In this document: in pieces, positions 4,831 through 23,474 of the stretch | Position numbering within the stretch: the stretch's first letter is position 1 | How the letters are laid out: every line of letters starts with the position of its first letter | DNA from: Desulfobaccales bacterium | GTDB lineage: Bacteria; Desulfobacterota; Desulfobaccia; Desulfobaccales; 0-14-0-80-60-11 | DNA: 35,536 nucleotides | Assembly (NCBI GenBank): GCA_037481655.1 | Contig: JBBFLF010000025.1 | Span: 1 to 35,536 of the forward strand | Direction: 5' to 3' | Program-made: the position numbers and the translations under genes | The notes under the pieces: generated by a model | Databases searched by the model: none | What the model was told of the DNA's origin: nothing | What the model saw: only the letters and a program-made list of their open reading frames with translations

Positions 4831-5442
4831 ATGAGGCGTGGCGCAGCTCTCATCCTGTGCCTGGGTGTGCTTTCGCTCGTGGGGGGCTGCGGCGGCCGGG
4901 CCCCGGTGATTCCCCCGCCGGCGGCCGAGGCCCCGCCCCCCGCGCCGGAACGCCTGGAACGGTATGAAAACCCGGACCAGGCGCTTTTGAAAGCGGCCCT
5001 GCAGGGGCGCTATCTCTCCCCCCGGGAAGCCCTGGAGCTGAGTGACCGCCTCCTCACCGAGGGCAGCCCGGCCACCCAGGACCAGGAGACCATTGCCCGG
5101 CTGGAGCTTCTCCTTCTGGGGGCCCTGAAGCAGGAGGACCGGGCCTCCCGGGCCGGGTTGCTGCGCAATCTGGGGATTGTCCGCTTTTATCAGAAGCAGT
5201 ACAAATCCGCCCGCCAGGCCCTGCAGGCGGCCAACGAGATCAATCCCCGGGATGCCCGGACCCATTATTACCTGGCCCGGCTCTTTGCCCGCCAGGAGCA
5301 GATATACCTTCGGCAGGGACAGAAAGCCAAAGCCAAACAGCAGGCCAAACTGGCGGAGATGGAGCTGGGGCTGGCCCGGAAGTTCGATCCCAGCAATCCC
5401 CTGTATCGTCAGAGCCTGAAGGAGAGCGTACGCACCGAGTAG
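4831..5442 (+). CDS. TPR-containing lipoprotein
   Basis: A 203-residue protein with a short signal sequence and lipobox LVGGC, so lipid attachment at Cys20 is predicted. A Pro/Ala-rich spacer (about 27-45) follows, then helical tetratricopeptide-like repeats (for example RNLGIVRFYQKQYKSARQAL and THYYLARLFARQEQIYLRQG). Proteins of this type usually act as outer-membrane or periplasmic scaffolds, as in PilF-like pilotins or the BamD group, but no specific family is recognised. The ATG at 4831 gives a normal signal peptide and follows GGAAGGGAAGAG; an in-frame ATG at 4801 would add ten charged residues. The next gene starts 5 bases after the stop. Confidence 0.8.
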   Translation: MRRGAALILCLGVLSLVGGCGGRAPVIPPPAAEAPPPAPERLERYENPDQALLKAALQGRYLSPREALELSDRLLTEGSPATQDQETIARLELLLLGALKQEDRASRAGLLRNLGIVRFYQKQYKSARQALQAANEINPRDARTHYYLARLFARQEQIYLRQGQKAKAKQQAKLAEMELGLARKFDPSNPLYRQSLKESVRTE

Positions 5443-5447
5443 GCCCC

Positions 5448-5663
5448 GTGAAAATCGCCTGCCCCCACTGCGGCAACGATACGGATTTCTACGAAGTGGC
5501 CGAAGGCGTCACCATCACCACTTTCTACGTGCAAAACGATGATGGCAGCTTTTCGGCGGTCAGCGATGAGTCGGAAATCCAGGGGGAGGTGCGCCTTTTC
5601 TGCGGCGAATGCCACAAGGAACTGAAGGAGTATTACAACCACTTCGTGGACATGCTGTTTTGA
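5448..5663 (+). CDS. Small zinc-ribbon-like protein
   Basis: A 71-residue protein with two CxxC knuckles (Cys5/Cys8 in CPHC and Cys52/Cys55 in CGEC), the layout of a zinc ribbon. The middle is acidic. It starts with GTG 5 bases after the stop of the lipoprotein gene and has no strong ribosome site of its own, so translational coupling is likely. Function is unknown; a role in protein or nucleic-acid binding is only general inference. Confidence 0.7.
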   Translation: MKIACPHCGNDTDFYEVAEGVTITTFYVQNDDGSFSAVSDESEIQGEVRLFCGECHKELKEYYNHFVDMLF

Positions 5664-5882
5664 CCGGCGGCGACCCCGGGAGAGCCTCCGGGCTCACTGC
5701 CGCTAGATTCCCGGCCGATCGCAACGACGCTGCTCTCTCCGCTGCCCTGACCCCCTTTGCAAGCCCCGGTAAAAACGCGGCACTCCTGGTCACCGGGGCC
5801 CTGGCCACCGCACCCGGCCCATCTCCCTAAACAGGATGGGGGCAGACTCTCCTTGAACTGATACCCCCTTCCCGGGAGCCCG

Positions 5883-7865
5883 TCAGGTCCGCCTGAGCGC
5901 GTCTTTGTCTCTCTGGGAGCGGGCATAGAGGGCGGTATACTCCTCCTGGATCAGCCGGGCCTCTTCCTGGGCCTTGAGGGCCTCCTCCTGCCATTGGCTG
6001 GCCAGGCGGGCTTTTTCCTGGATCGCCTGGCTCCGGGCCTCCAGTTCCTGGCGTAAGCTCTCGTTTTCCCGGCTGAGTTGGGCCAGAGCCCGCTCCAGCT
6101 CCTCCACCTGTGCGGCCAGCCGGGCCCGCTCCGCCAAAATTGCCTGGAGCTGTTCGCCGGCCAGGAGACTGGCGGCTGGGGGTTCCTCTGCCCCGGTTTC
6201 GGGGGCGCGACGCATCATGAGGGCCAGGGCCAGAAGCAGGGCCAAGCCTCCCACAAGACCCGCCCAGGCCAGCCCCAGGGCCAGTCGCCGGGCGGGGGAC
6301 TTTGCCGAGGCAGACGGGCGGGACGCCAGCAGCCGGGACACCTTGGCCCGGAGACCTGAGGGAGAGGCGGGAGGGCCTAGCCCTGGGGCGGCCCGGAGGG
6401 CGGGGAGAGAAAAGGCCACGGGAGCAGGGCGCCACACCGGTGGCAGGCCCGGGGCTCCCGCCCCCCAGAGCTCCGAGGCGAGGAGGTAGCTGCCTGGGGG
6501 CAGCCCGGTGAGCGGTTCCAGCCGTCCGCCCCGGGGGGAGAAGCGCACAAAGCGGCCGGCCCAGCCGCTCGCCGGGGAATGGAGGCCGAGCCAGCCCTGC
6601 CAGCCTCCCGGCGGGCCGTCCTCCACCTCCAGCCGCAGACCGCCCTCACCTTCCGCCCTCAGGCCGCCCCGGGCCGGCAGCACGGAGAGCCTAAAAAGCC
6701 TGGTCCGTATCGCCTCCGGACCGGTGGCGGTCACCCGGACCTGCCAGCTTCCCGGGGCCAAAGCCTGGGGGAGCAGCCCCAGGCGGGCTCCGGTCGGCAG
6801 GCCGGAAGGGGGCGCCGAAGAAGGTTCGGTGAGCTCAAGGGTACGGAAGGTGCCGTCCGGCCTCTGCCACTGGAGGGAGAAAATCAGCGGACCCGGACCC
6901 TCCCAGTCCGCCGCCATCCACGGCCGGAGGTGGGCGGTCAAGGGTCCCGCAGGCAGCCACACCCTCAAGGGGGCGGTGGAGTCCACCAGGCAGCGCCACC
7001 GGTCCGGGGCCGCAGCGCTCACCCGCCACCAGCCGGGGGCCGGGTCTTTCATATCCGCCAGGAAATAACCCTCCCCGGCCTGCCACCTCAGCCCCGGAGC
7101 CGGCCGCCCGGCGGGCAGCACCCGGCCGTCCGGGGCAATCAGGGCCGGCCGGTGGCGGGGGGCGGCGGGGAGAAACCACCTGGCCCGGGCCACCGTGGCG
7201 TCCAGGAAAAAGCCCTGTTTTTGGCGGGGCACACACTCCGGTGCCTTGAGATGATCCAGGAGCTCCAGGCAGGCTTCCGCCCAGAGCTCCGGGGAGGCAG
7301 CGGCAAAAACCCGCGGCCCGGAAGGAGAAGATCCGGTCTTTCCCCCGGCCCCCAGACTCAGCCACAGGGGCGTCAAACCGGCCCCCCGGGCGGCTTTGGC
7401 CGCCTCTTCCTGCTTTGCTTCCGGAGAGGCTCGGACGCTGAGAAAGACCAGCACCCCGCGGCCCCCCCGGAGCTCACTTCCACCTGCGGGACGTGGGGCC
7501 GCGGGGGTGGCAGGCAGGCCCGGCGACAAGGCCAGGGAAATCTTCTGCAGGACGGCCTGGCGGTGGGACGCCGTGAGGGGCTCTGCCGGCAGGACCTGGC
7601 GCAGGCCGCCGGACACCGCCATCACCCCCACCCGGTCTTTCTCGCTCAACAGGGCCAGCAGCAAACGCGCCGCCGCCAGGAGACGGCGGGCCTCCGGTGC
7701 CGGGGAGTCAGGGGCCGCGGCCAGCCACAGGGTTAACGGTTCCCGGGGTGCGACCTCCTGCCAAAGAGGGGTCATGGCCCCCATGGCGGTGCCCCATGCG
7801 AGCCCGAGAGAGAGGACCAAAGCCCCCGCCACAAGCCGCCAGCGCTGGCCCCGGCTCATCCTCAT
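5883..7865 (-). CDS. Exported protein with degenerate VWA-like domain, one membrane helix and C-terminal coiled coil
   Basis: About 660 residues. An N-terminal signal/anchor (WRLVAGALVLSLGLAWGTAMG) is followed by a segment laid out like a von Willebrand A domain (LLALLSEKDRVGVMAVS, then VLVFLSV). The DxSxS metal site is absent; the matching place reads LAAAPDSPAP. The middle (about 230-500) has repeated beta-rich stretches with many Trp, Gly and Pro. One strong membrane helix (LGLAWAGLVGGLALLLALALMM) precedes a Glu/Gln/Ala-rich coiled coil of about 90 residues ending in RRT. Topology is therefore probably an outside domain, one transmembrane helix and an inside coil. The start is uncertain: ATG codons at 7865 and 7859 fit the signal best, while a GTG at 7925 would add 20 residues. 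No partner gene is adjacent on its strand. Confidence 0.7.
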   Translation of the reverse strand: MRMSRGQRWRLVAGALVLSLGLAWGTAMGAMTPLWQEVAPREPLTLWLAAAPDSPAPEARRLLAAARLLLALLSEKDRVGVMAVSGGLRQVLPAEPLTASHRQAVLQKISLALSPGLPATPAAPRPAGGSELRGGRGVLVFLSVRASPEAKQEEAAKAARGAGLTPLWLSLGAGGKTGSSPSGPRVFAAASPELWAEACLELLDHLKAPECVPRQKQGFFLDATVARARWFLPAAPRHRPALIAPDGRVLPAGRPAPGLRWQAGEGYFLADMKDPAPGWWRVSAAAPDRWRCLVDSTAPLRVWLPAGPLTAHLRPWMAADWEGPGPLIFSLQWQRPDGTFRTLELTEPSSAPPSGLPTGARLGLLPQALAPGSWQVRVTATGPEAIRTRLFRLSVLPARGGLRAEGEGGLRLEVEDGPPGGWQGWLGLHSPASGWAGRFVRFSPRGGRLEPLTGLPPGSYLLASELWGAGAPGLPPVWRPAPVAFSLPALRAAPGLGPPASPSGLRAKVSRLLASRPSASAKSPARRLALGLAWAGLVGGLALLLALALMMRRAPETGAEEPPAASLLAGEQLQAILAERARLAAQVEELERALAQLSRENESLRQELEARSQAIQEKARLASQWQEEALKAQEEARLIQEEYTALYARSQRDKDALRRT

Positions 7866-8110
7866 TGCCCTTAGGCCTGGCGTCATCCCCGCCACCGTGT
7901 GAAGTTCCCTCCCCTCCTGATCCACTCCTCGTCTTTCAGGGGGAATTTCTTGAGTTCAGGGTGCATTTTTCCTGTCCCTGATAGATAATTCCAGGCGGGC
8001 AGCGGTAGCTCGGGGCTGAGGCTGAGGGGGAGGAAGGGTGGCAGTGGCCGGGAGCCCCATCTATATAGTTAGTGATAGCCTCATCTCATCCCTTAACGGA
8101 GCGCCCTTCC

Positions 8111-8962
8111 ATGCCTGAACTCCCTGAAGTGGAGGTGATCCGGCGGGCTTTGGCGCCGCAGCTTCAGGGACGGCGCATCGTGGCCCTGGCCTGCGGGGAA
8201 AAGAGGCTGCGGGCCCAATCATCCCCGGAGGTACTCCGGGAGTGGCTCCCCGGCCGGCGCATCGTGCGCCTGACCCGCCGGGGCAAATACCTCCTCCTGG
8301 AACTGGAGGGCGGGGTGACTGTGCTCCTGCACCTGGGGATGACCGGCCGCCTGCTCCTGGGACACCTGGGCGGGGACAAGGCCCTGCCCCATGTGCACCT
8401 GACCCTCACCCTGGAAGACGGGAACTGTCTCCTCTTTCAGGATGTGCGGCGCTTCGGCCAAATTCTGGTCTATCCCCCTGGGGAGACGCCGGAACCCCTG
8501 GCCAGGGTGGGGCAGGAGCCGTTCTCCCGCCGGGTCACCCCGGCGTGGCTTCAGGAGCAGGCCCGCCACCGCCGCCGACCGGTGAAGAACTTCCTCCTGG
8601 ACGGCCGCATCCTCGCCGGCATCGGCAATATCTACGCCGCGGAGATCCTCTTTGCCGTCGGGCTCCACCCCGAAACCCCGGTGGGGGACCTGACCCTGCC
8701 GCAATGGGAGGCCGTGCTCAAAACCACCCGGCGCATCCTCAAGCGGGCCATTGCCCGGGGCGGCACCACGGTGAACGACTACCTCCAGCCCGGCGGCACC
8801 ACCGGGCTTTTCCAGGTGGAGCTGGCGGTCTATGGCCGGGAGGGCGAGCCCTGCAGCCGCTGCCGCGCCCCCATCCAACGTCTGGTGCAGGCGGGACGGA
8901 GCACCTTTTTTTGCCCCCGGTGCCAGCCGGCGCCCCGCGGCCGGGCCCCTCAAACCGGCTGA
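8111..8962 (+). CDS. mutM: Formamidopyrimidine-DNA glycosylase (MutM/Fpg)
   Basis: Base-excision repair enzyme that removes 8-oxoguanine and formamidopyrimidines and nicks the backbone. The protein begins MPELPEVEVIRR, which supplies the catalytic N-terminal Pro2 and Glu3 and fixes the start at 8111. Visible: the H2TH region KNFLLDGRILAGIGNIYAAEILF, the zinc finger CSRCRAP...FFCPRC at the C-terminus, and the usual length (283 residues). CGGAG lies 9 bases before the ATG. It begins a plus-strand run with rpmE, the DUF1385 gene and the DUF72 gene, although rpmE is separated by 92 bases and may have its own promoter. Confidence 0.97.
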   Translation: MPELPEVEVIRRALAPQLQGRRIVALACGEKRLRAQSSPEVLREWLPGRRIVRLTRRGKYLLLELEGGVTVLLHLGMTGRLLLGHLGGDKALPHVHLTLTLEDGNCLLFQDVRRFGQILVYPPGETPEPLARVGQEPFSRRVTPAWLQEQARHRRRPVKNFLLDGRILAGIGNIYAAEILFAVGLHPETPVGDLTLPQWEAVLKTTRRILKRAIARGGTTVNDYLQPGGTTGLFQVELAVYGREGEPCSRCRAPIQRLVQAGRSTFFCPRCQPAPRGRAPQTG

Positions 8963-10262: not shown

Positions 10263-10324
10263 TCGCGGCCCCGCCTCCCCCGAAACCGAAAGGGGACCGG
10301 ACGCCGCTTTCCTTGGGGGAGCTG

Positions 10325-11194
10325 ATGCTTAGGATCGGCACCGCCGGCTGGGATTACCGGGATTGGGACGGGGTGGTCTATCCCCCGGGTCTCAAGGGCA
10401 CCGACCGGCTGCGCTTCCTGGCGGGGCTCCTGGACGCGGTGGAGATCAACGTCACCTTCTACCGGCCCGTCACCCCGCGCCTGGCCGAGCGCTGGCTGGC
10501 GGCCGTGGCCGACCTGCCTGATTTCCGCTTCACCGCCAAACTCCTCAATATTTTCACCCACGAACGCCGCCTGCCGGAGAAGGAGGTGGGGGAGTTCCAG
10601 GAAGGTCTGATGCCCCTGCTTGCCGCCGGGCGGCTGGGGGTGCTCCTGGCCCAGTTTCCTTACTCCTTCCACAACGACGAGCCAAACCGCGCTTATCTGG
10701 TGCGTCTGAAGGACATCTTTGGCGCCTTCCCCCTGGCGGTGGAGGTGCGCCACCGCTCCTGGCAGCGCCGGGAGGTGCGGGAGTTCCTCTCCCAGGTGGG
10801 GCTGGAATTCGTCAACCTGGACCAGCCCATGGTGTCCTATTCCCTGGGGCGCACCGCCTGGGTCACCGGCCGGCTGGGTTATTTGCGGGCCCACGGTCGC
10901 CGCAAAGACGTCTGGTTTGAGTTCGGGGAGGACCGCCAGGCCCGCTACGACTATCTCTACTCCCCGGAGGAGCTCGCGGAGTTGGCGGAGCGCACCCGGG
11001 AGCTCCTCACCAAGGCCACGGATGTCTATGTGATTTTCAACAACCACCCCGCCGGCCAGGCGGCGGCCAACGCCCTGGAGCTGAGCCGCCTCCTCCTGGG
11101 CCGCCGGCCGCCCCTGCCTTCCTGCCTCCTTGCCGCCTTCCCCCGCCTGGCCCAGCCGGAAAGCCCGCCCTCCCCCCTTGCGCCTCCTGGCTGA
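10325..11194 (+). CDS. DUF72 family protein
   Basis: A 289-residue TIM-barrel-like protein of the DUF72 family (YecE-like), with unknown reaction. Typical features: the N-terminus LRIGTAGWDYRDWDG, the EINVTFYRPVTP strand-loop, the LAQFPYSFHND and VEVRHRSW motifs, and DVYVIFNNHPAGQAAANA near the end. The C-terminus carries an extra Pro/Ser-rich tail. The start is the ATG at 10325, since GGGGGAG lies just ahead; the TTG at 10313 would place this ribosome site inside the gene. It is the last gene of the mutM-rpmE run, 62 bases after the DUF1385 gene. Confidence 0.9.
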   Translation: MLRIGTAGWDYRDWDGVVYPPGLKGTDRLRFLAGLLDAVEINVTFYRPVTPRLAERWLAAVADLPDFRFTAKLLNIFTHERRLPEKEVGEFQEGLMPLLAAGRLGVLLAQFPYSFHNDEPNRAYLVRLKDIFGAFPLAVEVRHRSWQRREVREFLSQVGLEFVNLDQPMVSYSLGRTAWVTGRLGYLRAHGRRKDVWFEFGEDRQARYDYLYSPEELAELAERTRELLTKATDVYVIFNNHPAGQAAANALELSRLLLGRRPPLPSCLLAAFPRLAQPESPPSPLAPPG

Positions 11195-11450: not shown

Positions 11451-12596
11451 TTACTGGCGATAAGGCACCAGCACCCGGAGGGGCTCTTTCAGGCCCACGG
11501 TTTCAGCAAAATTCTTCAGGCGTTTGCGCATGATAGGGGTGACCTCCTGGCCTTTGGTCACCAGGAGGGTGTCGGTGAGGGTTTCCACATCCTGGTCCAG
11601 GATCATGCCGTCCGCCAACTGATGGTGCATCACTTCCTGTACCAGGTAGCGGGCCTCCAGCCAGACCACCGTTTCGAGGGCGGTGAGGACTTCGGGGTCA
11701 TACCAGCCGGGGCGTTTTTTCAGTTCAAGGACGGCGGCATTTTTCCGGATACCGGCCGCCACCAGGGCATCGAAATCCAGAGCCACCTTCAGGATCCGTC
11801 CTCCTAGGGGGATATTTACCCCTTTGCGGTCATCTTTGGGGTTCCCGGACCCATCAAAGCATTTGCCTTGGTAGGCAATAATCTCTGCCACGCTTTCCAG
11901 GCGAGGAATCTGGCTGACCAAGTCCGCGGCCACAAAGGGGTGCATCTCGAAGACCTGGAATTCCTCCGGGTCGAGGAGCTGTCCCTGGTAAATCTTTTTC
12001 AGGGTGGCTTCCGATAGCATGATGCAGCCGATCTGGGAGAGCATGGCGGCGGTTTCCAGCTGCCAGGTGTCCTTCACCTTCAGCACATAAGCGATCTCCC
12101 GGACATAACGAACGATGCGGGAAGCCCGGCCGAAGGCTTCGGGATTGAGCAACGACAGGAGCTGGGTCAGAACCTTGATGCTCCCCCTCAGGGTCTGCTC
12201 CAGGAGTTCCTTTTCGGCCCGCACCAAGCGATATTGGGCCAGCCCGCTTTCCAGGGCCCGGGACAAGGTGTCCAGGTCACAGGGCTTGGTGAGGAAGCGA
12301 AAGACGTTGCCTTCATTCACCGCTTGGATGGCGGCCTCCACCTCGGCATAGCCGGTGAGCATCATGCGTACCGTGTCCGGGGCCAGCTCCCGCACCCGGG
12401 ACAGAAACTGGACCCCGTCCATTTTGGGCATGCGCAAGTCCGAGACCACCACGGCGTATGGGCCATTGTGGCGGACCGCCTTCAATCCCTCCTCGGCTCC
12501 CTGGGCGGTATCCACCTGAAAGGCTTTGCGCAACTGGCGCTGGACCCCGGCCAGGACATGGGCGTCATCGTCAACGAACAGGACTTTCTCATTCAT
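11451..12596 (-). CDS. Response regulator with degenerate HD-GYP-type domain
   Basis: A 381-residue protein. A receiver domain (1-120) has the phospho-acceptor Asp53 in VVSDLRMPKMDG and the Lys of LTKPCD. A linker helix and an HD-GYP-shaped domain (about 145-290) follow. The metal and catalytic residues of real c-di-GMP phosphodiesterases are replaced: LLHDIGK reads MLSQIGC (187-188), the HH pair reads YQ (242-243) and GYP reads GNP. It is therefore probably a binding or scaffold domain, not an enzyme. About 90 further residues end the protein. The start at 12596 has AGGGAGAGGG ahead and overlaps the upstream stop by 8 bases; the longer frame upstream is only the shadow of that gene. Last gene of a three-gene signalling operon. 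Confidence 0.9.
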   Translation of the reverse strand: MNEKVLFVDDDAHVLAGVQRQLRKAFQVDTAQGAEEGLKAVRHNGPYAVVVSDLRMPKMDGVQFLSRVRELAPDTVRMMLTGYAEVEAAIQAVNEGNVFRFLTKPCDLDTLSRALESGLAQYRLVRAEKELLEQTLRGSIKVLTQLLSLLNPEAFGRASRIVRYVREIAYVLKVKDTWQLETAAMLSQIGCIMLSEATLKKIYQGQLLDPEEFQVFEMHPFVAADLVSQIPRLESVAEIIAYQGKCFDGSGNPKDDRKGVNIPLGGRILKVALDFDALVAAGIRKNAAVLELKKRPGWYDPEVLTALETVVWLEARYLVQEVMHHQLADGMILDQDVETLTDTLLVTKGQEVTPIMRKRLKNFAETVGLKEPLRVLVPYRQ

Positions 12597-13806
12597 ATTC
12601 CCTCTCCCTTTGGAGGAGCTCCCGGCATTTTTTCTGCCAGGCGGGCAGCTCCCCGGCCAAACCGAGGAGATTGAGATAAGCCAGATCCACCACCCTTTGG
12701 CTTTTGGCCGCCTCCTCCGATCCAAGCTGATGCTCCAGGGCGTTGGCCACATGCACCGCGGTGAGGGGGGCGAAGCCTGCCGGATGGGCCGAGCCGGGTT
12801 CATGGTGAAAGGCCACCGCTTCCACCAGGGGGTGGGAAAAACCCCACAGGGAAAACAGGTAGGCCCCCACTTGGGCGTGGTTGACCTCAAAGACCCGCTG
12901 TTCCTCCTCACACCCGGCAATCCCCAGCCCCACGGTGATCTCCAGGACCTGATAGTACTTTTTGGGGAAATTGGCCGCCAGGATTAATTTCCCGGCATCG
13001 TGCAGGACCCCGGCCAAAAAGGCGTCGTCTGCTATTTCCCGGGGCTGTTGGGCCAAGAGGGCAATATCCCGGGCCCAGACCCCCACCCGCAGGCTGTGCT
13101 TCCATAGCCGGGAGACAGAAAATCCGGGGATGAGGCTTTGGTCAAACTGAGAGAATATCCGGATGGACAACACCAAGGCCCGGATGGTTTCCAGGCCCAA
13201 TAGCTCCACGGCATATGCGGGATGGGAGACGTGGCGCGGCCGACCGAAAAAGGCTGAATTCACCAGTTGGAGGACTTTGGCAGTCATGCCGATATCCCGG
13301 GAAATGATTTCGCCCACCCGGCGCACCGAGGCGGTCTCGGAGCTGAGTTCTTCCAGGATTTCGAGATATAAGTCCGGCAGGCTCGGCAAAGTCTCCATTC
13401 CACCTACCAGGAGCAGCAGGGCGTCGTCCCGTAACACGTCCCGCAGCAGCAGGGTGCGGCGGATGGTGGCCTTCAGGGTGTCGGCATCGCAAGGCTTGGT
13501 AAGATACTGGTGGGCGGAGCGCACCGACTTCATCACCATTTCCTTGTCCGACTGCCCGGAGAGAATGATGCGCACCACCTCGGGATGCCGTTTTTTCACC
13601 TCCTCCAGGAGTTGGGCCCCGTCCATCACCGGCATGCGCATGTCCGTGACCAGGATATCAAAGGGTTCCCGGTCCATGACCTCCAGGGCTTCCCGGCCGC
13701 CAGGGGCGAAGGCAGCCTGCCATTCCTGGCGCAACGGATAAAGCAGGCGCCTCAAGCCGGCCAGCACATTGGGGTCATCGTCCACAAAGAGGATTTTGAC
13801 CGGCAT
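12589..13806 (-). CDS. Response regulator with HDOD output domain
   Basis: A 405-residue protein. A receiver domain (1-120) has Asp55 in LVTDMRMPVMDG and Lys in LTKPCD. It is followed by an HDOD domain (about 140-335) with LVNSAFFG, AVELLGLETIRALVLS and the retained AGVLHDAGKL His-Asp pair, plus a C-terminal helical tail. HDOD proteins act in signalling networks and have no DNA-binding domain, so output is probably through protein contact. The ATG at 13806 has GAGGAAGGGG ahead and lies 10 bases after the kinase stop; the frame extending upstream is a shadow of the kinase gene. Its partner kinase is the gene just upstream. Confidence 0.93.
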   Translation of the reverse strand: MPVKILFVDDDPNVLAGLRRLLYPLRQEWQAAFAPGGREALEVMDREPFDILVTDMRMPVMDGAQLLEEVKKRHPEVVRIILSGQSDKEMVMKSVRSAHQYLTKPCDADTLKATIRRTLLLRDVLRDDALLLLVGGMETLPSLPDLYLEILEELSSETASVRRVGEIISRDIGMTAKVLQLVNSAFFGRPRHVSHPAYAVELLGLETIRALVLSIRIFSQFDQSLIPGFSVSRLWKHSLRVGVWARDIALLAQQPREIADDAFLAGVLHDAGKLILAANFPKKYYQVLEITVGLGIAGCEEEQRVFEVNHAQVGAYLFSLWGFSHPLVEAVAFHHEPGSAHPAGFAPLTAVHVANALEHQLGSEEAAKSQRVVDLAYLNLLGLAGELPAWQKKCRELLQREREYE

Positions 13807-13816
13807 CGCCCCTTCC

Positions 13817-16309
13817 TCAGCTGCCCAAACGTCCCCGGGGCAAGCGGATGATGAAGGTGGTGCCCTGGCCCACCTCAGTTTCGAAGGTGATGTTGCCTTG
13901 GTGTTTCTCCACCACCACCGCATGGGCGATGGCCAGTCCCTGGCCCGTGCCTTTCCCCACTTCCTTGGTGGTGAAGAAGGGATCAAAGATGCGGGAGCGG
14001 ATCTTCTCCGGGATGCCCGGCCCGGTGTCACGGATCCGGATTTCCACCCACTCCCCGTCGCTGCGGGTGGTTATGGTGATCAGGCCTTTTTCGCCTTTCT
14101 GCCGGTCCACCTTTTCGTCGATGGCCTGGGCGGCATTGATGATCAGGTTGAGCAGTACTTGGTTGAATTCATCCGGCAGGCAGGCCACCAAAGGCAGTTC
14201 GGGGTCCAGGTCGGTGATCACCTCGGCCACGTATTTCCATTCATTGCGGGCCACGGTGAGGGTATTTTCAATGGCCTTGTTGAGATTGACCGGGGTCTTC
14301 TCTTTGGGGCCGGGATGGGAAAAATCTTTCATGGCCCGGACGATCTTGGCCACCCGTTCCACCCCCTCCAGGGTCTGGGCGATGGCTTGGGGAATCTCCG
14401 CGGTCAGATACTCCAGGTCCACTTCCTGGCTGAGGCGGGCCACTTGGGCCGCCTGCTCCCGGACATCCCTCCCTTGGTCCAAACCCCTGCGCAATTGCTC
14501 GTACTCCTGCAAGCCCAAGAGGTCCCCAAAGGCCTCCTTCAGGAAGCGGGTATTGTCCCCCACAAATTGGATGGGGGTGTTGATTTCATGGGCGATACCG
14601 GCGGCCAGCTGGCCGATGGATTCAAGTTTTTGGGCCTGGGCCAGCTGGGCCTCCAGCAGCCGCCGGTCGGTGATGTCCCGGCCCAGCAGGATCATTCCCA
14701 GCAGGCGGCCGTCTTCCCCCTGGATCGGACTGAAAGTGAGCCCCAGAAAACCCTCCTTGCCGTCCTCCCGCTGGTAGCGGATGTCTTCCACCCGTACCGG
14801 CTGCACCGTCTGCCGGCATTGCTGCCACCCTGAGAGGACCCGGTCCCACTCCCAGGAAAGGGGACAATCCTGCAAGAGACTGCCAGGAATCGGCGGTTGC
14901 CCCGACCACAGCAGCTTTTCCGCCTCCGGGTTCCAGTGCCACAGACGGCCTTCGGGGGTGAGGCCGAGCATCATGAAGGGGATGGAGCTAAAAAGTTGTT
15001 CAATTTCCTTAGTGGTCCGGCGCAATTCCTCCTCGATCTCCTTGCGGTGAGTGATGTCCAGGATCACCCCCACTAAGCCCCCCACTTGGCCATCGGCCTT
15101 GGGGAAGCTGGCTTTATAGAAAATCACCTCCCGGATAGAGCCGTCCCCGGCCTGCACCTGGGCTTCATAAGATTGCTCCCCCAGTCTCTCCAGGAGCCGG
15201 CGGTCCATCTCCTCGTATTTCCGGGCCAGCTGCGGCGGAGCCACGTCATACACGGTTTTTCCCAGGAGATCATTCCGGGAGTGCCCCAAAAATTTCTCAA
15301 AGGCGCGGTTGCAACCCAGATAGCGGCCGGCCGCATCCTTGTAAAAGATGGGGTTGGGAATGGTGTCCAGCAGGGTCTCCAGGAACAGGAACTGTTCGGT
15401 CAGGGCCGCCTCGGCCCTTTTCCTTTCCGTGATATCCCGGATGACATGTACCCCCCCGATCAGGTTGCGATCCTGATCGTACAAAGGGGACAAGGAGATA
15501 TGAAAATACGACTTCCAGCGGACATCGAACACCTCCACCGAATGCGGCCCCTCGCCGACCTCCAGTCTGGCGAAAGGGCAGTAGGTCGGGGGCGCAGGGG
15601 TGCCGTGCACCAGCTCATAGCACTTGCGTCCCTGGGATGTCGCTTTATCCAGACCCATTTTGTCCGCCATGGCCCGGTTGAGCCGGATGATGTTCTGCTC
15701 CCGGTCCAGGATGGCAATCATATCCGGGACCGCGTCAAAGGTGAGCTCCCACTCCTCTTTGGCCCGCAGCAGGGCCTCCTGGGCCTGCCGGCGCGCGGCG
15801 ATCTCCTCAGTTAGCCGTTGATTGGCTTCCTTCGCCTGCTGTATCGCCCGCTTCAGATCGCTCAGGTCTCGGCTGATGCAGACGCTTCCCTCTACCTCCT
15901 GGTTTTCATTGCGCAATAAGCTGATGGAGAGTTCGAAGGGGGCCACGGTGCCGTCTTTTTTCCGCAGATGGATCTCATACTGGCGCACTGCACCTTCCCG
16001 GCGCAGTTGCTGCAGCATCCTCCCCATCTCTTCCTGGTCGGGGTAAAGGGCGGAATAATGGAGTTTTTTGACTTCTGCAGCAGTATAACCCAGGAGCTCT
16101 TCTGCCTTCTTATTCCACCAGACAAAGTACCCCTGCCGGTTGACCACGCCGATGGCTTCGGCTGATTCCTCCAGGACTTTTTCCAGATAAGACTCACCTG
16201 CCAGGGTGAAAAGCTCCTTTGTCGCTTTTACATCCGCCTTGCCGGTGGGATGGCAGGAATGTTCTCGTTGCCGGGATTCCCCCTGGCATTTCGCACCGGA
16301 GAGTTGCAT
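13817..16309 (-). CDS. Soluble multi-PAS sensor histidine kinase
   Basis: An 830-residue kinase with four PAS domains (about 36-155, 180-300, 310-425 and 440-560), then HisKA with the phospho-accepting His574 in AAGIAHEINTPIQF and an HATPase domain (NLIINAAQAID, DTGPGIPEKI, FFTTKEVGKGTGQGL). There are no transmembrane helices and no signal peptide, so it senses an internal signal. PAS2 contains a CPFARLEVGEGPH segment like those of other PAS kinases. The start at 16309 has GGGGAGG at 8-9 bases; the longer frame to 16438 is less likely. The two following genes are receivers, which makes a kinase with two non-DNA-binding outputs. Confidence 0.93.
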   Translation of the reverse strand: MQLSGAKCQGESRQREHSCHPTGKADVKATKELFTLAGESYLEKVLEESAEAIGVVNRQGYFVWWNKKAEELLGYTAAEVKKLHYSALYPDQEEMGRMLQQLRREGAVRQYEIHLRKKDGTVAPFELSISLLRNENQEVEGSVCISRDLSDLKRAIQQAKEANQRLTEEIAARRQAQEALLRAKEEWELTFDAVPDMIAILDREQNIIRLNRAMADKMGLDKATSQGRKCYELVHGTPAPPTYCPFARLEVGEGPHSVEVFDVRWKSYFHISLSPLYDQDRNLIGGVHVIRDITERKRAEAALTEQFLFLETLLDTIPNPIFYKDAAGRYLGCNRAFEKFLGHSRNDLLGKTVYDVAPPQLARKYEEMDRRLLERLGEQSYEAQVQAGDGSIREVIFYKASFPKADGQVGGLVGVILDITHRKEIEEELRRTTKEIEQLFSSIPFMMLGLTPEGRLWHWNPEAEKLLWSGQPPIPGSLLQDCPLSWEWDRVLSGWQQCRQTVQPVRVEDIRYQREDGKEGFLGLTFSPIQGEDGRLLGMILLGRDITDRRLLEAQLAQAQKLESIGQLAAGIAHEINTPIQFVGDNTRFLKEAFGDLLGLQEYEQLRRGLDQGRDVREQAAQVARLSQEVDLEYLTAEIPQAIAQTLEGVERVAKIVRAMKDFSHPGPKEKTPVNLNKAIENTLTVARNEWKYVAEVITDLDPELPLVACLPDEFNQVLLNLIINAAQAIDEKVDRQKGEKGLITITTRSDGEWVEIRIRDTGPGIPEKIRSRIFDPFFTTKEVGKGTGQGLAIAHAVVVEKHQGNITFETEVGQGTTFIIRLPRGRLGS

Positions 16310-16701
16310 GAGTCTCGCCTCCCCTGCGACCAGAAGTAATTCACCAGGAGGACCGCAGGGAAATGTGTCCTCCCGGGATTGGCGAGTTTCGTTTTCCCCC
16401 GGGACCATGCGCATGCGTCCCCTTGGTCCCATCGGCATTCAGGCCGCAGACCTTTAAGCCGGAAAATGAAATAAGAAAAATGCCCAGGTCGGAAAGGAAC
16501 GTGAGCGGATGAAAGATGAAAAGGGGGGGGCAGAGAAGCCAAGGAAGAGTGGAGGAGACTGGCCGGTTCACCACCCGGGGGATATTCACCTATATCTCAC
16601 CTGATTCCTTGATTGCCGCGTTTTCGGAGGGGGCCCTGCACAGGAGGTGCACAGGGAAAAATAAAAGGGGTAGACCTTTATGGCTAACCCCTTGAAATCC
16701 T
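16310..16701. other. Intergenic region upstream of the kinase operon
   Basis: About 390 bases between the kinase start and the 3' end of the tRNA gene. It should hold the kinase promoter, but no convincing -35/-10 pair was found on the minus strand. A C-tract (16525-16532 read on the minus strand) and pyrimidine-rich stretches are present. No supported coding sequence and no intrinsic terminator for the tRNA were seen. Confidence 0.5.
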
Positions 16702-16778
16702 TGGCGCGCCCAGAGAGATTCGAACTCCCGACACACGGATTCGTAGTCCGTTGCTCTATCCAGCTGAGCTATGGGCGC
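16702..16778 (-). tRNA. tRNA-Arg (anticodon ACG)
   Basis: A cloverleaf can be folded on the minus strand. The acceptor stem GCGCCCA pairs with TGGGCGC; the D-arm contains AGCTCAGCTGGATAGAGC; the anticodon stem ACGGA/TCCGT carries the loop CTACGAA (anticodon ACG, Arg); the T-arm has the loop TTCGAAT. Discriminator G and the CCA tail (16702-16704) are encoded. ACG is normally edited to ICG and reads CGU, CGC and CGA. Confidence 0.97.
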
Positions 16779-16798
16779 GCATCCGCTGTCCACCTGAT

Positions 16799-16827
16799 AA
16801 TTTAATCAAATTTTCGCTCCAGGTCAA
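16799..16827 (-). promoter_or_regulatory. Promoter of tRNA-Arg
   Basis: On the minus strand: -35 TTGACC (16822-16827), a 17-base spacer and -10 TAAATT (16799-16804). Predicted start is about 13 bases before the tRNA 5' end. Confidence 0.55.
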
Positions 16828-17001
16828 CCCGAAAGCTGAGGGTTCCCGCTTGGCCCCTCCCAGTCCTCTTTGTGGCTGGGCTTTCCGGTGGCCGGTCTTT
16901 CCGGATCCGCACGGCCAGCGGGAAAGCCAATGTTACGCCTTATCCGGGCCGAGGAGTATGCGTCTCTCCCTTCCAGGCCGTCGAAGCCAGGCCGGCAACG
17001 T

Positions 17002-17030
17002 TTGGAAACCCGGCCCGGACATGATACATT
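17002..17030 (+). promoter_or_regulatory. Promoter of carA
   Basis: -35 TTGGAA (17002-17007), a 17-base spacer and -10 TACATT (17025-17030). This gives a leader of about 83 bases before the GTG at 17120. Confidence 0.45.
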
Positions 17031-17119
17031 ATCCGCCGAAGAATCTGACTCCCAGGCTCCGGCGGGGAAAATGCGGCTTTTTTGGTTTTGTCCCGCGTGG
17101 GGCAGTATTGAGGTGGCAC

Positions 17120-18361
17120 GTGCGCGCGTTGCTGGCATTGGAAGACGGTCTCACCCTGTGGGGCCGGTCCTTCACCGGGCCCGGCGAGGCCAAGGGCGAG
17201 GTGGTGTTCAACACCGCCATGACCGGCTATCAGGAGGTCCTCACCGACCCCTCCTACCGGGGCCAGATCGTCACCATGACCTATCCCATGATGGGGAACT
17301 ACGGGGTCAACCCGGAGGATGTGGAATCCCAGGCCCTCCAGGTGGAGGGCTTCATCATCAAGGAATACCATCGCCACCCCTCCAACTGGCGGGCCAAGAA
17401 CGACCTGGCCCACTATCTCCGGGCCGCCGGACGGCTGGGGGTGGAGGGTTTGGACACCCGGGCCCTCACCAAGCGGCTGCGCACCGTGGGGGCCATGCGG
17501 GGCATCCTCTCCACCGAGGACCTGGACCCGGACCGCCTCGTGCGCCGGGTCAGGGAGGAAGTCCCGGACATGAACGGCCTGGACCTTGTCCCCCAAGTTA
17601 CATGTGTCGCGCCATATTGGTGGGAGGAAATGGGCGGGAGAGGGGGCCAGGGGTCAGAAACCCCTGCCCCCTCACCCACACCCTCTCCCCCAACCCCGTA
17701 TGGGGGCTGGGGAGGGGGTGCGGGGGAGGGCGGGGGGACGGTGTTCCCCCGGCCCTCCCCCGCCGCCGACCTCACCGACCTCTGGCGGCAGCGGTCCGGG
17801 AGGAAGGTGGTGGTGTATGACTTCGGGGTGAAGTTCAACATCCTGCGGTGTCTCAAGGCCCGGGGCCTGGAGGTGCTGGTGGTGCCGGCGGCCACCCCGG
17901 CCGCCGAGGTGCTGGCCCTCGGCCCCGCCGGCATCGTCTTCAGCAACGGTCCCGGCGACCCGGCGGCGGTCACCTATGGCATTGAGAATGTCCGCCGCTG
18001 TCTGGGGCAGGTGCCCACCTTCGGCATCTGCCTGGGGCATCAGCTCATGGGGCTGGCCCTGGGGGGGCGGACCTTCAAGCTGAAATTCGGCCACCGGGGG
18101 GCCAACCAGCCGGTGAAGAACCGCCTCACCGGCCGGGTGGAGATCACCAGCCAGAACCACGGTTTCGCGGTGGATCTGGCCTCCATCCCCGACCCGGAGG
18201 TGGAGCTCACCCACATCAACCTGAACGACCAGACCCTGGAGGGCCTGCGCCACCGGAAGCTGGCGGCCTTTTCGGTGCAGTATCACCCCGAGGCCTCCCC
18301 AGGCCCCCACGACGCCAATTATCTCTTTGATGAGTTCGTTAGGGCGATGACAGACTCTTGA
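17120..18361 (+). CDS. carA: Carbamoyl-phosphate synthase small subunit with repeat-derived insertion
   Basis: Glutamine amidotransferase subunit of carbamoyl-phosphate synthase; it hydrolyses glutamine and passes ammonia to CarB for arginine and pyrimidine synthesis. Visible: the N-terminal CarA domain (about 1-165, with [19 protein letters not shown]), and a class I amidotransferase domain from about 225 with Cys304 in GICLGHQL and His389/Glu391 in [10 protein letters not shown]. Length is 413 residues against a usual 370-385. The excess is a Gly/Pro/Ser-rich insert (about residues 172-215) between the domains, coded by a copy of the dispersed repeat. The start is GTG at 17120, with GAGGTG ahead. 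carB follows only after the inserted OLD-type gene. Confidence 0.93.
17634..17763 (+). repeat. Dispersed multi-hairpin element, copy B (inside carA)
   Basis: A full-length copy of about 130 bases in the carA frame. Three hairpins follow each other: left 17640-17673 (GAGGGGGCCAGGGGT against ACCCCTGCCCCCTC), middle about 17679-17720 with loop GTAT, and right 17722-17761. The left and middle parts match copies C, D and E on this strand and F on the other; the right part matches copy A. It has no stop codon in the carA frame. Coded residues are almost only Gly, Pro, Ser, Thr and Ala. Confidence 0.85.
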
Positions 18362-18555
18362 GTAGGTCAGTTTTTTAAATTATTGAATAGAAATTTAACC
18401 TTGAAAAATTATTTTCTTCTAAACATGGACGAGTCTATTATGTGATTGAGATGTTTCATAATATGCATGAAATAAATACAACACGTGAAAAAAATTTATG
18501 AGGAATAGAAATATTTATTCTTTTTGTGATGAATACCATATATAAGGAGGCTAAA
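18362..18555 (+). other. AT-rich upstream region of the OLD-type gene
   Basis: Base composition changes sharply directly after the carA stop, from GC-rich to strongly AT-rich. The 194 bases have no supported gene. A dyad TTTCAT...ATGAAA (18454-18472) could be an operator. Several AT-rich hexamers could serve as promoters, but none stands out. Confidence 0.5.
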
Positions 18556-20202
18556 ATGGCTCGTATTAAAAAACTTATTATAACAGGATACCGTTCTATA
18601 GGAGATGCGGTCGAAATAAATTTTCCTGAGGGCAAGCCTCTTATTTTAATAGGTGAAAATAATTCAGGCAAATCAAATATAGTTAAGGCCATCAATCTTG
18701 TTTTAGGTCAATTTCATCCTGCGTATCATCAACCAGATGATCACGAATTTTTTGAACGTGACCAAAATAAAAAAATTGAAATTAAAGTAGAGTTTGACCC
18801 AGAAGATCGTTATGGTGATAAATATACTGAAGTTGTCTGGAGGTATAATAAGAATTCACCAGAACCACTTCAATATCGTGGAAGATCAGGACAATTATAT
18901 GGCTCTTCTGATGGTTACATCAGAAGTGAACATCGCGATAGCTGTATATGCGTTTTGGTTGAAGCTGAGCGTAATCTTGCATATCACCTTGGCTATTCTT
19001 CAAAGTGGACGATGCTTAGTCGATTAATGCACCGCTTTCATCGTGCCCTTTCCAATGAACCACAGATTAAAAATAATCTTGAAAAGTTATTTTGTGAGAT
19101 TAAAAATAATTTTTATAATGTTCCACAATTTGGAAATTTTATAATCGAATTACAAAATCAAATGGATAATCTTATAGGTTCAATGACTTATCGACTAAAT
19201 ATCGATTTTGAAGCATATAATCCTGTCAATTTTTTCCACGCTTTACGCTTACAAGCTAAAGAGAATAATGAACCTCGAACTTTGGAGGAAATGGGAACTG
19301 GAGAACAGCAATTATTAGCTCTTTGCTTTGCACATGCATATGCCAAGGCATTCCACGGAGGGATTGTTTTTGTAATAGAAGAGCCGGAAGCACACTTGCA
19401 TCCGCTTGCTCAAAAGTGGCTAGCAAAAAGATTGGATGAATATTGTCAAGATGGTTTACAAATATTGATAACTACTCATAGCCCTTCATTTATTAATATT
19501 AATAATTTAGAAGGAATAGTCTGGGTATTTAAAGAAAATGGACAGACTAAAGTAAAACAAATAAATATTAATGACTTAATAGATTATTGCATAAAAACAG
19601 GCGTTCCACAAAATAAAATAAGTGAAGTTAGTGTTCTGCCATTCTATAATAGCAATTCAACCACTGAGATTCTTTCAGGGTTTTTCAGCAAGTGCGTAGT
19701 TTTAGTTGAGGGGCCAACTGAATCTCTTGCTTTGCCAGTTTATTTATCAAAGTGTGGCTTCGATGTACTTCGGGAAGGGGTTGCAATTATACCAGTGCTT
19801 GGAAAAGGGAACTTGGCTAAGTGGGTGCGACTTTTTTCTGTTTATGGTATTCCATGTTATACCATATTCGACAATGATAGTAATGATGATAGGAATAAAA
19901 GAAAGAGAGAAGATATTTTAAAAGCCTTAAACATACAAAATCCTGATGAATATTTAATTAGTGAAGACATTTTAATCAATAATGATTTTGCAGTGTTCGG
20001 GGTAAATTTTGAAACATCATTAAGGAATATATTTTATGATTATCAAAGATTAGAACAAGATGCTAAAGAAAATGGTATAGAAAGCAAGCCATTTATAGCA
20101 AAATGGGTTGCAGAAAAATTAGATATAAATGATGATAAAAACAATAATGGGAAAGAAATAATTGAAAGATTGATTGACGCAATTAAAAGCAAAATTATTT
20201 AA
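18556..20202 (+). CDS. OLD-family ATP-dependent nuclease (AAA ATPase plus TOPRIM)
   Basis: A 548-residue protein. An ABC/SMC-like ATPase with Walker A GENNSGKS (33-40), the signature-like [19 protein letters not shown], Walker [12 protein letters not shown] (Glu275/Glu276) and His308 in TTHSPSFI is followed by a TOPRIM nuclease domain with Glu385 in VLVEGPTES and the acidic FDNDSND (Asp439, Asp441). This is the layout of overcoming-lysogenization-defect (OLD) nucleases. No UvrD-type partner is present, so it is a lone (class 1-like) OLD and not a Gabija pair. The ATG at 18556 has AAGGAGG at 5 bases. The gene is strongly AT-rich, unlike both neighbours, and sits between carA and carB on the same strand: clear signs of transfer. 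A phage-defence role is inferred from family and context. Confidence 0.92.

Positions 20203-20222: not shown

Positions 20223-23474
<3,252 letters not shown>

Follow-up and report, generated by a model that had tools for sequence, protein, structure and literature searches.

A two-component operon with HDOD and degenerate HD-GYP receivers in a Desulfobaccales bacterium and its relatives

What can a response regulator do if its output domain has the fold of an HD-GYP phosphodiesterase for cyclic di-GMP (c-di-GMP) and lacks the HD and HH metal ligands of that enzyme? The question is raised by an operon on the minus strand of a 35,536-nucleotide stretch of a Desulfobaccales bacterium (contig JBBFLF010000025.1, assembly GCA_037481655.1), hereafter called the window. 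From 5′ to 3′ the operon encodes a soluble histidine kinase (13817..16309), a receiver (REC) protein with an HDOD domain (12589..13806) and a second REC protein with an HD_5 domain (11451..12596), referred to below as the pseudo-HD-GYP protein. We favour the reading, with a probability of about 0.55, that the three genes form a two-component module whose two outputs both have the HD fold, the dead one being an HnoD-like regulator that would act by protein contact, with no role in catalysis or c-di-GMP reception.

A preliminary description, made from the letters alone, had noted a tight operon with a four-PAS soluble kinase, a REC-HDOD and a REC-HD-GYP-like protein and without any DNA-binding domain. 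This observation is confirmed by Pfam, the coordinates and hydropathy. The kinase gene is separated by a gap of 10 bp from the REC-HDOD gene, which overlaps the REC-HD_5 gene by 8 bp. The kinase contains four PAS stretches (PAS_4, 192.1 bits), a HEINT H-box (HE-x-x-T) and HATPase_c (92.4 bits); its start codon is uncertain, with an ATG at 16309 and a second in-frame ATG upstream at 16438. HDOD (PF08668) was matched with 182.3 bits against a cut-off of 22.9 and HD_5 with 124.7 bits against 27.2, which assigns the second protein to the HDOD family and the third to the HD-GYP fold. No DNA-binding domain was found in the three proteins by Pfam at E 0.001. The highest hydropathy mean over 19 residues was 1.20 to 1.45 per protein and indicated no membrane segment in any of the three, which by this simple measure suggests soluble proteins. 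A scan for promoters and terminators gave one promoter-like site (1.5 expected) and three terminator-like sites (7.1 expected).

Loss of the HD-GYP site and its recurrence in relatives

The pseudo-HD-GYP protein begins with a REC domain carrying the acceptor D53 and ends with a C-terminal beta module (about residues 317-378). Its AlphaFold 2 (AF2) model (predicted local distance difference test, pLDDT, 90.1; predicted template modelling score, pTM, 0.72) contains a long linker helix (108-150) that joins the REC to the HD domain (HD_5, 141-303 by Pfam). As the preliminary description had read, SQ replaces HD, YQ replaces HH and GNP replaces GYP, which leaves neither the HD nor the HH metal ligands of a c-di-GMP phosphodiesterase. 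Furthermore, the alignment has a gap in place of the nucleotide-contacting segment both for the window protein and for 83 of the 84 pseudo relatives described below.

When bacterial and archaeal genomes were scanned, 391 relatives appeared; the tallies over relatives given below come from the 80 nearest loci. These loci hold 88 full-length matches: four with HD, and 84 open reading frames (ORFs) without HD at positions 187-188, which is how pseudo is defined here. The HD pair is SQ in 70 of the 84 pseudo ORFs, the second HH position (243) is Gln in 83 with no His among them, and the Tyr of GYP is kept in six. The acceptor Asp of the REC is present in 83, the remaining one having a gap. A strain-level mutation with intact close relatives, the case named beforehand as fatal to the idea of a dead switch, is not what was found: S187, Q188 and Q243 are present in each of the eight nearest full-length relatives, which have open frames and identities of 51-73%, and none of them has HD. 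Since relatives show the same losses, neither chance nor a local mutation accounts for them; the metal-site loss claimed for the window protein holds and extends beyond it. A plasmid search returned 502 records, 27 of them covering 80% of the protein; ten among the matches listed are 29-33% identical to it.

Because the tally alone is defined by the missing HD, the unity of the dead group was judged from a clade test. The pseudo-HD-GYP alignment held 80 of the 84 pseudo ORFs and the window protein; 40 of the aligned ORFs entered, with the window protein, a tree of 55 rows that also contained 11 intact HD-GYPs. A branch supported at 100/98 separates the resulting 41 pseudo rows, which all lie on one side of it, from the 11 intact HD-GYPs. 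Together with the recurring losses, this single group argues that the active-site loss is old and fixed in the pseudo group. By their record labels the 80 loci belong to 14 named phyla, led by Thermodesulfobacteriota (27 loci), Planctomycetota (19) and Myxococcota (13), with five loci unlabelled; many are metagenome assemblies, and the labels may be loose.

The operon and its HDOD partner in relatives

In 66 of the 84 cases the end of an HDOD gene falls -60 to +250 bp from the start of the pseudo gene, and in 62 of these the two overlap or lie within 20 bp. This count rests on an HDOD-specific model and includes L069 after re-pairing. Outside it stand L038 and L063, where an intact HD-GYP ORF adjoins, L094 and the second gene of L093 (more than 250 bp away), and L074 (a fragment). 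For 12 pseudo ORFs no HDOD was found on the strand, and six of them begin less than 1 kb from the edge of the stretch examined. At L109 and L112, the pseudo genes (7001-8155) carry CL at the HD pair and have no same-strand HDOD despite 7 kb of upstream sequence. A REC was seen in 64 of the 66 adjoining HDOD proteins, the other two being incomplete. HEINT was present in 57 of 62 upstream kinases, a set based on a preliminary HDOD pairing, and the full order of HEINT kinase, HDOD and pseudo-HD-GYP occurs in 44 of the 84 cases, across nine named phyla.

Pairwise distances among 45 sets, the window included, correlated at 0.75 between pseudo-HD-GYP and HDOD proteins, 0.64 between pseudo-HD-GYP proteins and kinases and 0.67 between HDOD proteins and kinases; the shuffled maxima were 0.33-0.37, in a shuffle that leaves shared organism ancestry in. 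A control in six genomes, read by eye, placed 8 of 8 pseudo genes less than 2 kb from a strong same-strand HDOD match. Of 82 other HD_5 rows a single one was near an HDOD, and it sits inside a pseudo operon; 13 of the 43 HDOD rows, scoring below 30 bits, were omitted from this control, and some HD_5 rows are pieces of one protein. Downstream of the pseudo operons 52 co-directional ORFs were found, and the 39 that were scanned included 20 with REC, three with HD_5 and two with HDOD. A further receiver may be common there; no common output domain appeared among the 39 in the 25 of 66 families listed.

The window HDOD protein has its acceptor at D55, keeps HD as LHDAGK, and retains H237, H269-D270, H310 and H334-H335. 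Across the 66 HDOD proteins, H237 is kept in 63, H269 in 64, D270 in 59, H310 in 63, H334 in 62 and H335 in 59 (the HDOD alignment contains 63 of 70 HDOD rows and the window protein). The acceptor Asp is conserved in the REC of both the HDOD and the pseudo-HD-GYP proteins. The AF2 model of the REC-HDOD protein has a pLDDT of 92.2, and its Foldseek matches include HDOD structures and MmoQ, which is among the top ones. The earlier statement that HDOD keeps His-Asp is borne out by these counts. The further label of an active-type HD site was overstated: the HDOD regulator DVU0330, which has the HD residues, is reported to act only weakly on a synthetic substrate and not at all on c-di-GMP (PMC4114195).

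Possible functions of the dead receiver

In the mechanism that we propose, the soluble kinase would sense a signal through its PAS domains and phosphorylate both RECs, and would probably also dephosphorylate both through HE-x-x-T. Phosphorylation of D53 would shift the helix between REC and HD domain in the pseudo-HD-GYP protein, as well as the surfaces that its HD domain and C-terminal module expose. In consequence the dead HD domain and the C-terminal beta module would take up or let go of another protein. The likeliest candidates for this partner are signalling proteins of the HD fold, namely the REC-HDOD of the same operon, an intact HD-GYP phosphodiesterase, or both. The intact HD-GYP partner would be encoded beside the pseudo gene in some relatives and elsewhere in the genome in the organism of the window. 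The preliminary description had imagined a protein-interaction switch made of the two receivers, possibly as a heterodimer, with one active-type and one inactive HD site; as a whole, its interpretation is partly supported.

An intact HD-GYP phosphodiesterase is a plausible target of the pseudo-HD-GYP protein because 17 ORFs with intact HD, HHE and GYP motifs, spread over 16 of the 80 loci, accompany the pseudo gene and always share its strand. A receiver-like motif is present in 16 of the 17, and two of the ORFs lie more than 4 kb away. Five of these neighbours were compared by REC with the pseudo protein of the same locus, and the identity is 51.2% at L080 and 44.4% at L108. At L038, a gene for a REC-PAS-intact HD-GYP protein (5381-6937) stands between the REC-HDOD and the pseudo gene, and the RECs of the two HD-GYP-fold proteins share 88.8% identity. 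The genome that contains the window encodes three further HD_5 proteins, each with HD, HH and GYP intact. It also has four GGDEF matches and two PilZ matches over the cut-off, which makes it likely that c-di-GMP is made in this organism; EAL gave no match in the same genome. Going further, and only tentatively, one may imagine a widespread module in which one kinase serves two HD-fold receivers, an HDOD protein keeping an HD-type site and a dead HD-GYP protein. These receivers would associate with one another as well as with an intact HD-GYP enzyme, and HD domains devoid of catalysis would set the phosphodiesterase output by changing partners.

Several points weigh against the protein-contact reading. 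The REC identity of the intact neighbour to the pseudo protein is low at L049 (32.2%) and L042 (25.9%), and no intact HD-GYP ORF was found by the motif pattern at 64 of the 80 loci, many of them incomplete, or in the window operon. The counts lean to close relatives, being taken from the nearest 80 loci of 391, and the distance shuffle leaves shared organism ancestry in place. H219 is retained in 70, D274 in 79 and D276 in 78 of the 84 pseudo ORFs, and a pure scaffold would have no obvious need of them. Finally, the positions of two residues of the c-di-GMP receptor DvhD, the base-clamp L577 and the bridging P567, are retained in 81 and 77 of the 84 (L577 is kept and P567 is Ser in the window protein), and therefore a ligand pocket may remain.

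This last point leads to the alternative of metal-free c-di-GMP binding by the dead HD domain, the receiver gating or reading the binding. DvhD of Desulfovibrio vulgaris is reported to have SQ at the HD pair, no metal and no c-di-GMP hydrolysis and to be a c-di-GMP receptor (PMC13090378); the likely presence of c-di-GMP in our organism agrees with such a role. In VIA-align, DvhD also ranks with the top structures matched by the HD part (9rbz, Z 20.2, root-mean-square deviation 3.8 over 191 residues), beside Bd1817 (Z 19.7) and PmGH (Z 19.1), in rows that match mostly the REC and have little bearing on the fold of the C-terminal module. The window protein shares with DvhD the SQ and the loss of HH; however, the contact residues of the canonical site are missing. 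Y523 of DvhD is kept in none of the 84 pseudo ORFs against 8 of the 11 intact HD-GYPs, Y621 in six against all 11, R650 in none against eight (three gaps) and Y652 in none against seven (three gaps), the last two positions falling in the segment where 83 of the 84 have a gap. K520 is likewise kept in none of the pseudo ORFs. K582 and E668 are mostly absent from them but do not discriminate, because the intact HD-GYPs lack them too (kept in 0 and 1 of 11). In the window protein the corresponding residues are E for Y523, F for K582, N for Y621, L for M646, gaps for R650 and Y652, and R for E668. Furthermore, the tree places DvhD among the intact HD-GYPs, and on this ground its SQ probably arose separately from that of the pseudo group. 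A DvhD-like receptor is retained only as a rival because contacts common to DvhD and the intact enzymes are missing, and we regard it as unlikely. We infer that the output of the pseudo-HD-GYP protein is non-catalytic, and it probably does not bind nucleotide.

Slightly less likely again is a phosphate sink, in which the pseudo-HD-GYP protein would mainly draw phosphate away from REC-HDOD, the real output. Two RECs behind one kinase, both with a conserved acceptor Asp, would suit such a role, but a sink alone would not need the HD domain or the C-terminal module; both are conserved, the module being found in 82 of the 84 pseudo ORFs. The retained H219, D274 and D276, together with S187, Q188 and Q243, might instead build a different enzyme or ligand site, since SQ and xQ are conserved as letters; with the HD and HH metal ligands gone, and the SQ protein DvhD reported to show no c-di-GMP hydrolysis (PMC13090378), we consider this improbable. 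A decaying gene or a strain-level mutation is hardly credible. The distribution is indeed patchy, with a match at E 1e-20 in four of 21 same-family genomes and in neither of the two same-genus genomes among them, but the same losses are found in the open-frame relatives and in 84 ORFs at 80 loci. Regulation by protein contact therefore remains the reading that we prefer.

Neighbouring genes and comparison with known regulators

The upstream neighbour of the operon, outside the system, is a tRNA-Arg(acg) gene on the minus strand (16702..16778, ARAGORN). At its 3′ end the operon adjoins a gene for a DUF72 protein on the opposite strand (10313-11194, plus strand). Further away, an OLD-type ATPase with TOPRIM (18526-20202, plus strand; Pfam AAA_15 and OLD-like_TOPRIM; PADLOC Old 142.2 and GajA 135.4 bits) is placed between a gene that we take to be carA-like (16751-18361) and the carbamoyl-phosphate synthase large chain (20223-23474).

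Dead HD-GYP regulators are already known one by one, as HnoD, NosR and DvhD; the operon was not described in the literature searched (open-licence PMC papers). A dead group with fixed replacement letters in 14 named phyla, with the full gene order in nine, offers a repeatable system in which to ask what a pseudo-HD-GYP does. The nearest NCBI family name is c-di-GMP phosphodiesterase, and the sequences argue against that name for the pseudo group.

The best NCBIfam match of the window protein is the NosR family NF053512, with 252.8 bits against a cut-off of 400; four relatives scored 226.9-263.4 bits. Proteins of Burkholderia stagnalis (553.9 bits) and Pseudoalteromonas (502.2 bits) pass this cut-off, and both have degenerate HD sites. 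The window protein has the REC, degenerate HD-GYP and C-terminal module of the NosR family, and a hidden Markov model of the C-terminal module from the pseudo family matches the two proteins (7.5e-10 and 2.3e-7, respectively). At the 80 loci no ORF of at least 120 aa other than the pseudo ORFs has this module, and it was seen in none of 14 intact HD-GYPs, although in seven of these rows the sequence stopped with the match, too early to reveal the module. In the tree the two NosR-family rows, both on long branches, are not grouped together: one stands beside the intact proteins and one beside the pseudo group. Taken together, the sequences make the window protein a NosR relative outside the curated family. 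NosR of Burkholderia pseudomallei receives phosphate from the kinase NosK and has the motif HG-GTP, in contrast to SQ-GNP in the window protein, and the nos operon includes the FIST sensor NosP; the word HDOD is absent from that paper (PMC12570481). FIST gave no match in our organism's draft genome of 50 contigs, which speaks against a NosP-type nitric oxide input.

DvhD shares with the window protein the HD-GYP fold and SQ at the HD pair, lacks metal, and differs as a membrane receptor with dCache and PAS domains (PMC13090378). The REC-HDOD protein has its counterparts in the HDOD response regulators MmoQ and DVU0330, the latter also keeping the HD residues; the accessible text on DVU0330 mentions no dead HD-GYP partner (PMC4114195). 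HnoD of Shewanella oneidensis, compared here by description only, is a response regulator with a degenerate HD-GYP domain whose kinases are shared with other regulators, and it reportedly interacts directly with the phosphodiesterase HnoB and so suppresses it (PMC6335343, PMC8846402). Its target differs in being an EAL protein, a domain without a match in our organism's genome, and the pseudo-HD-GYP protein may exert a similar contact on a partner of the HD fold.

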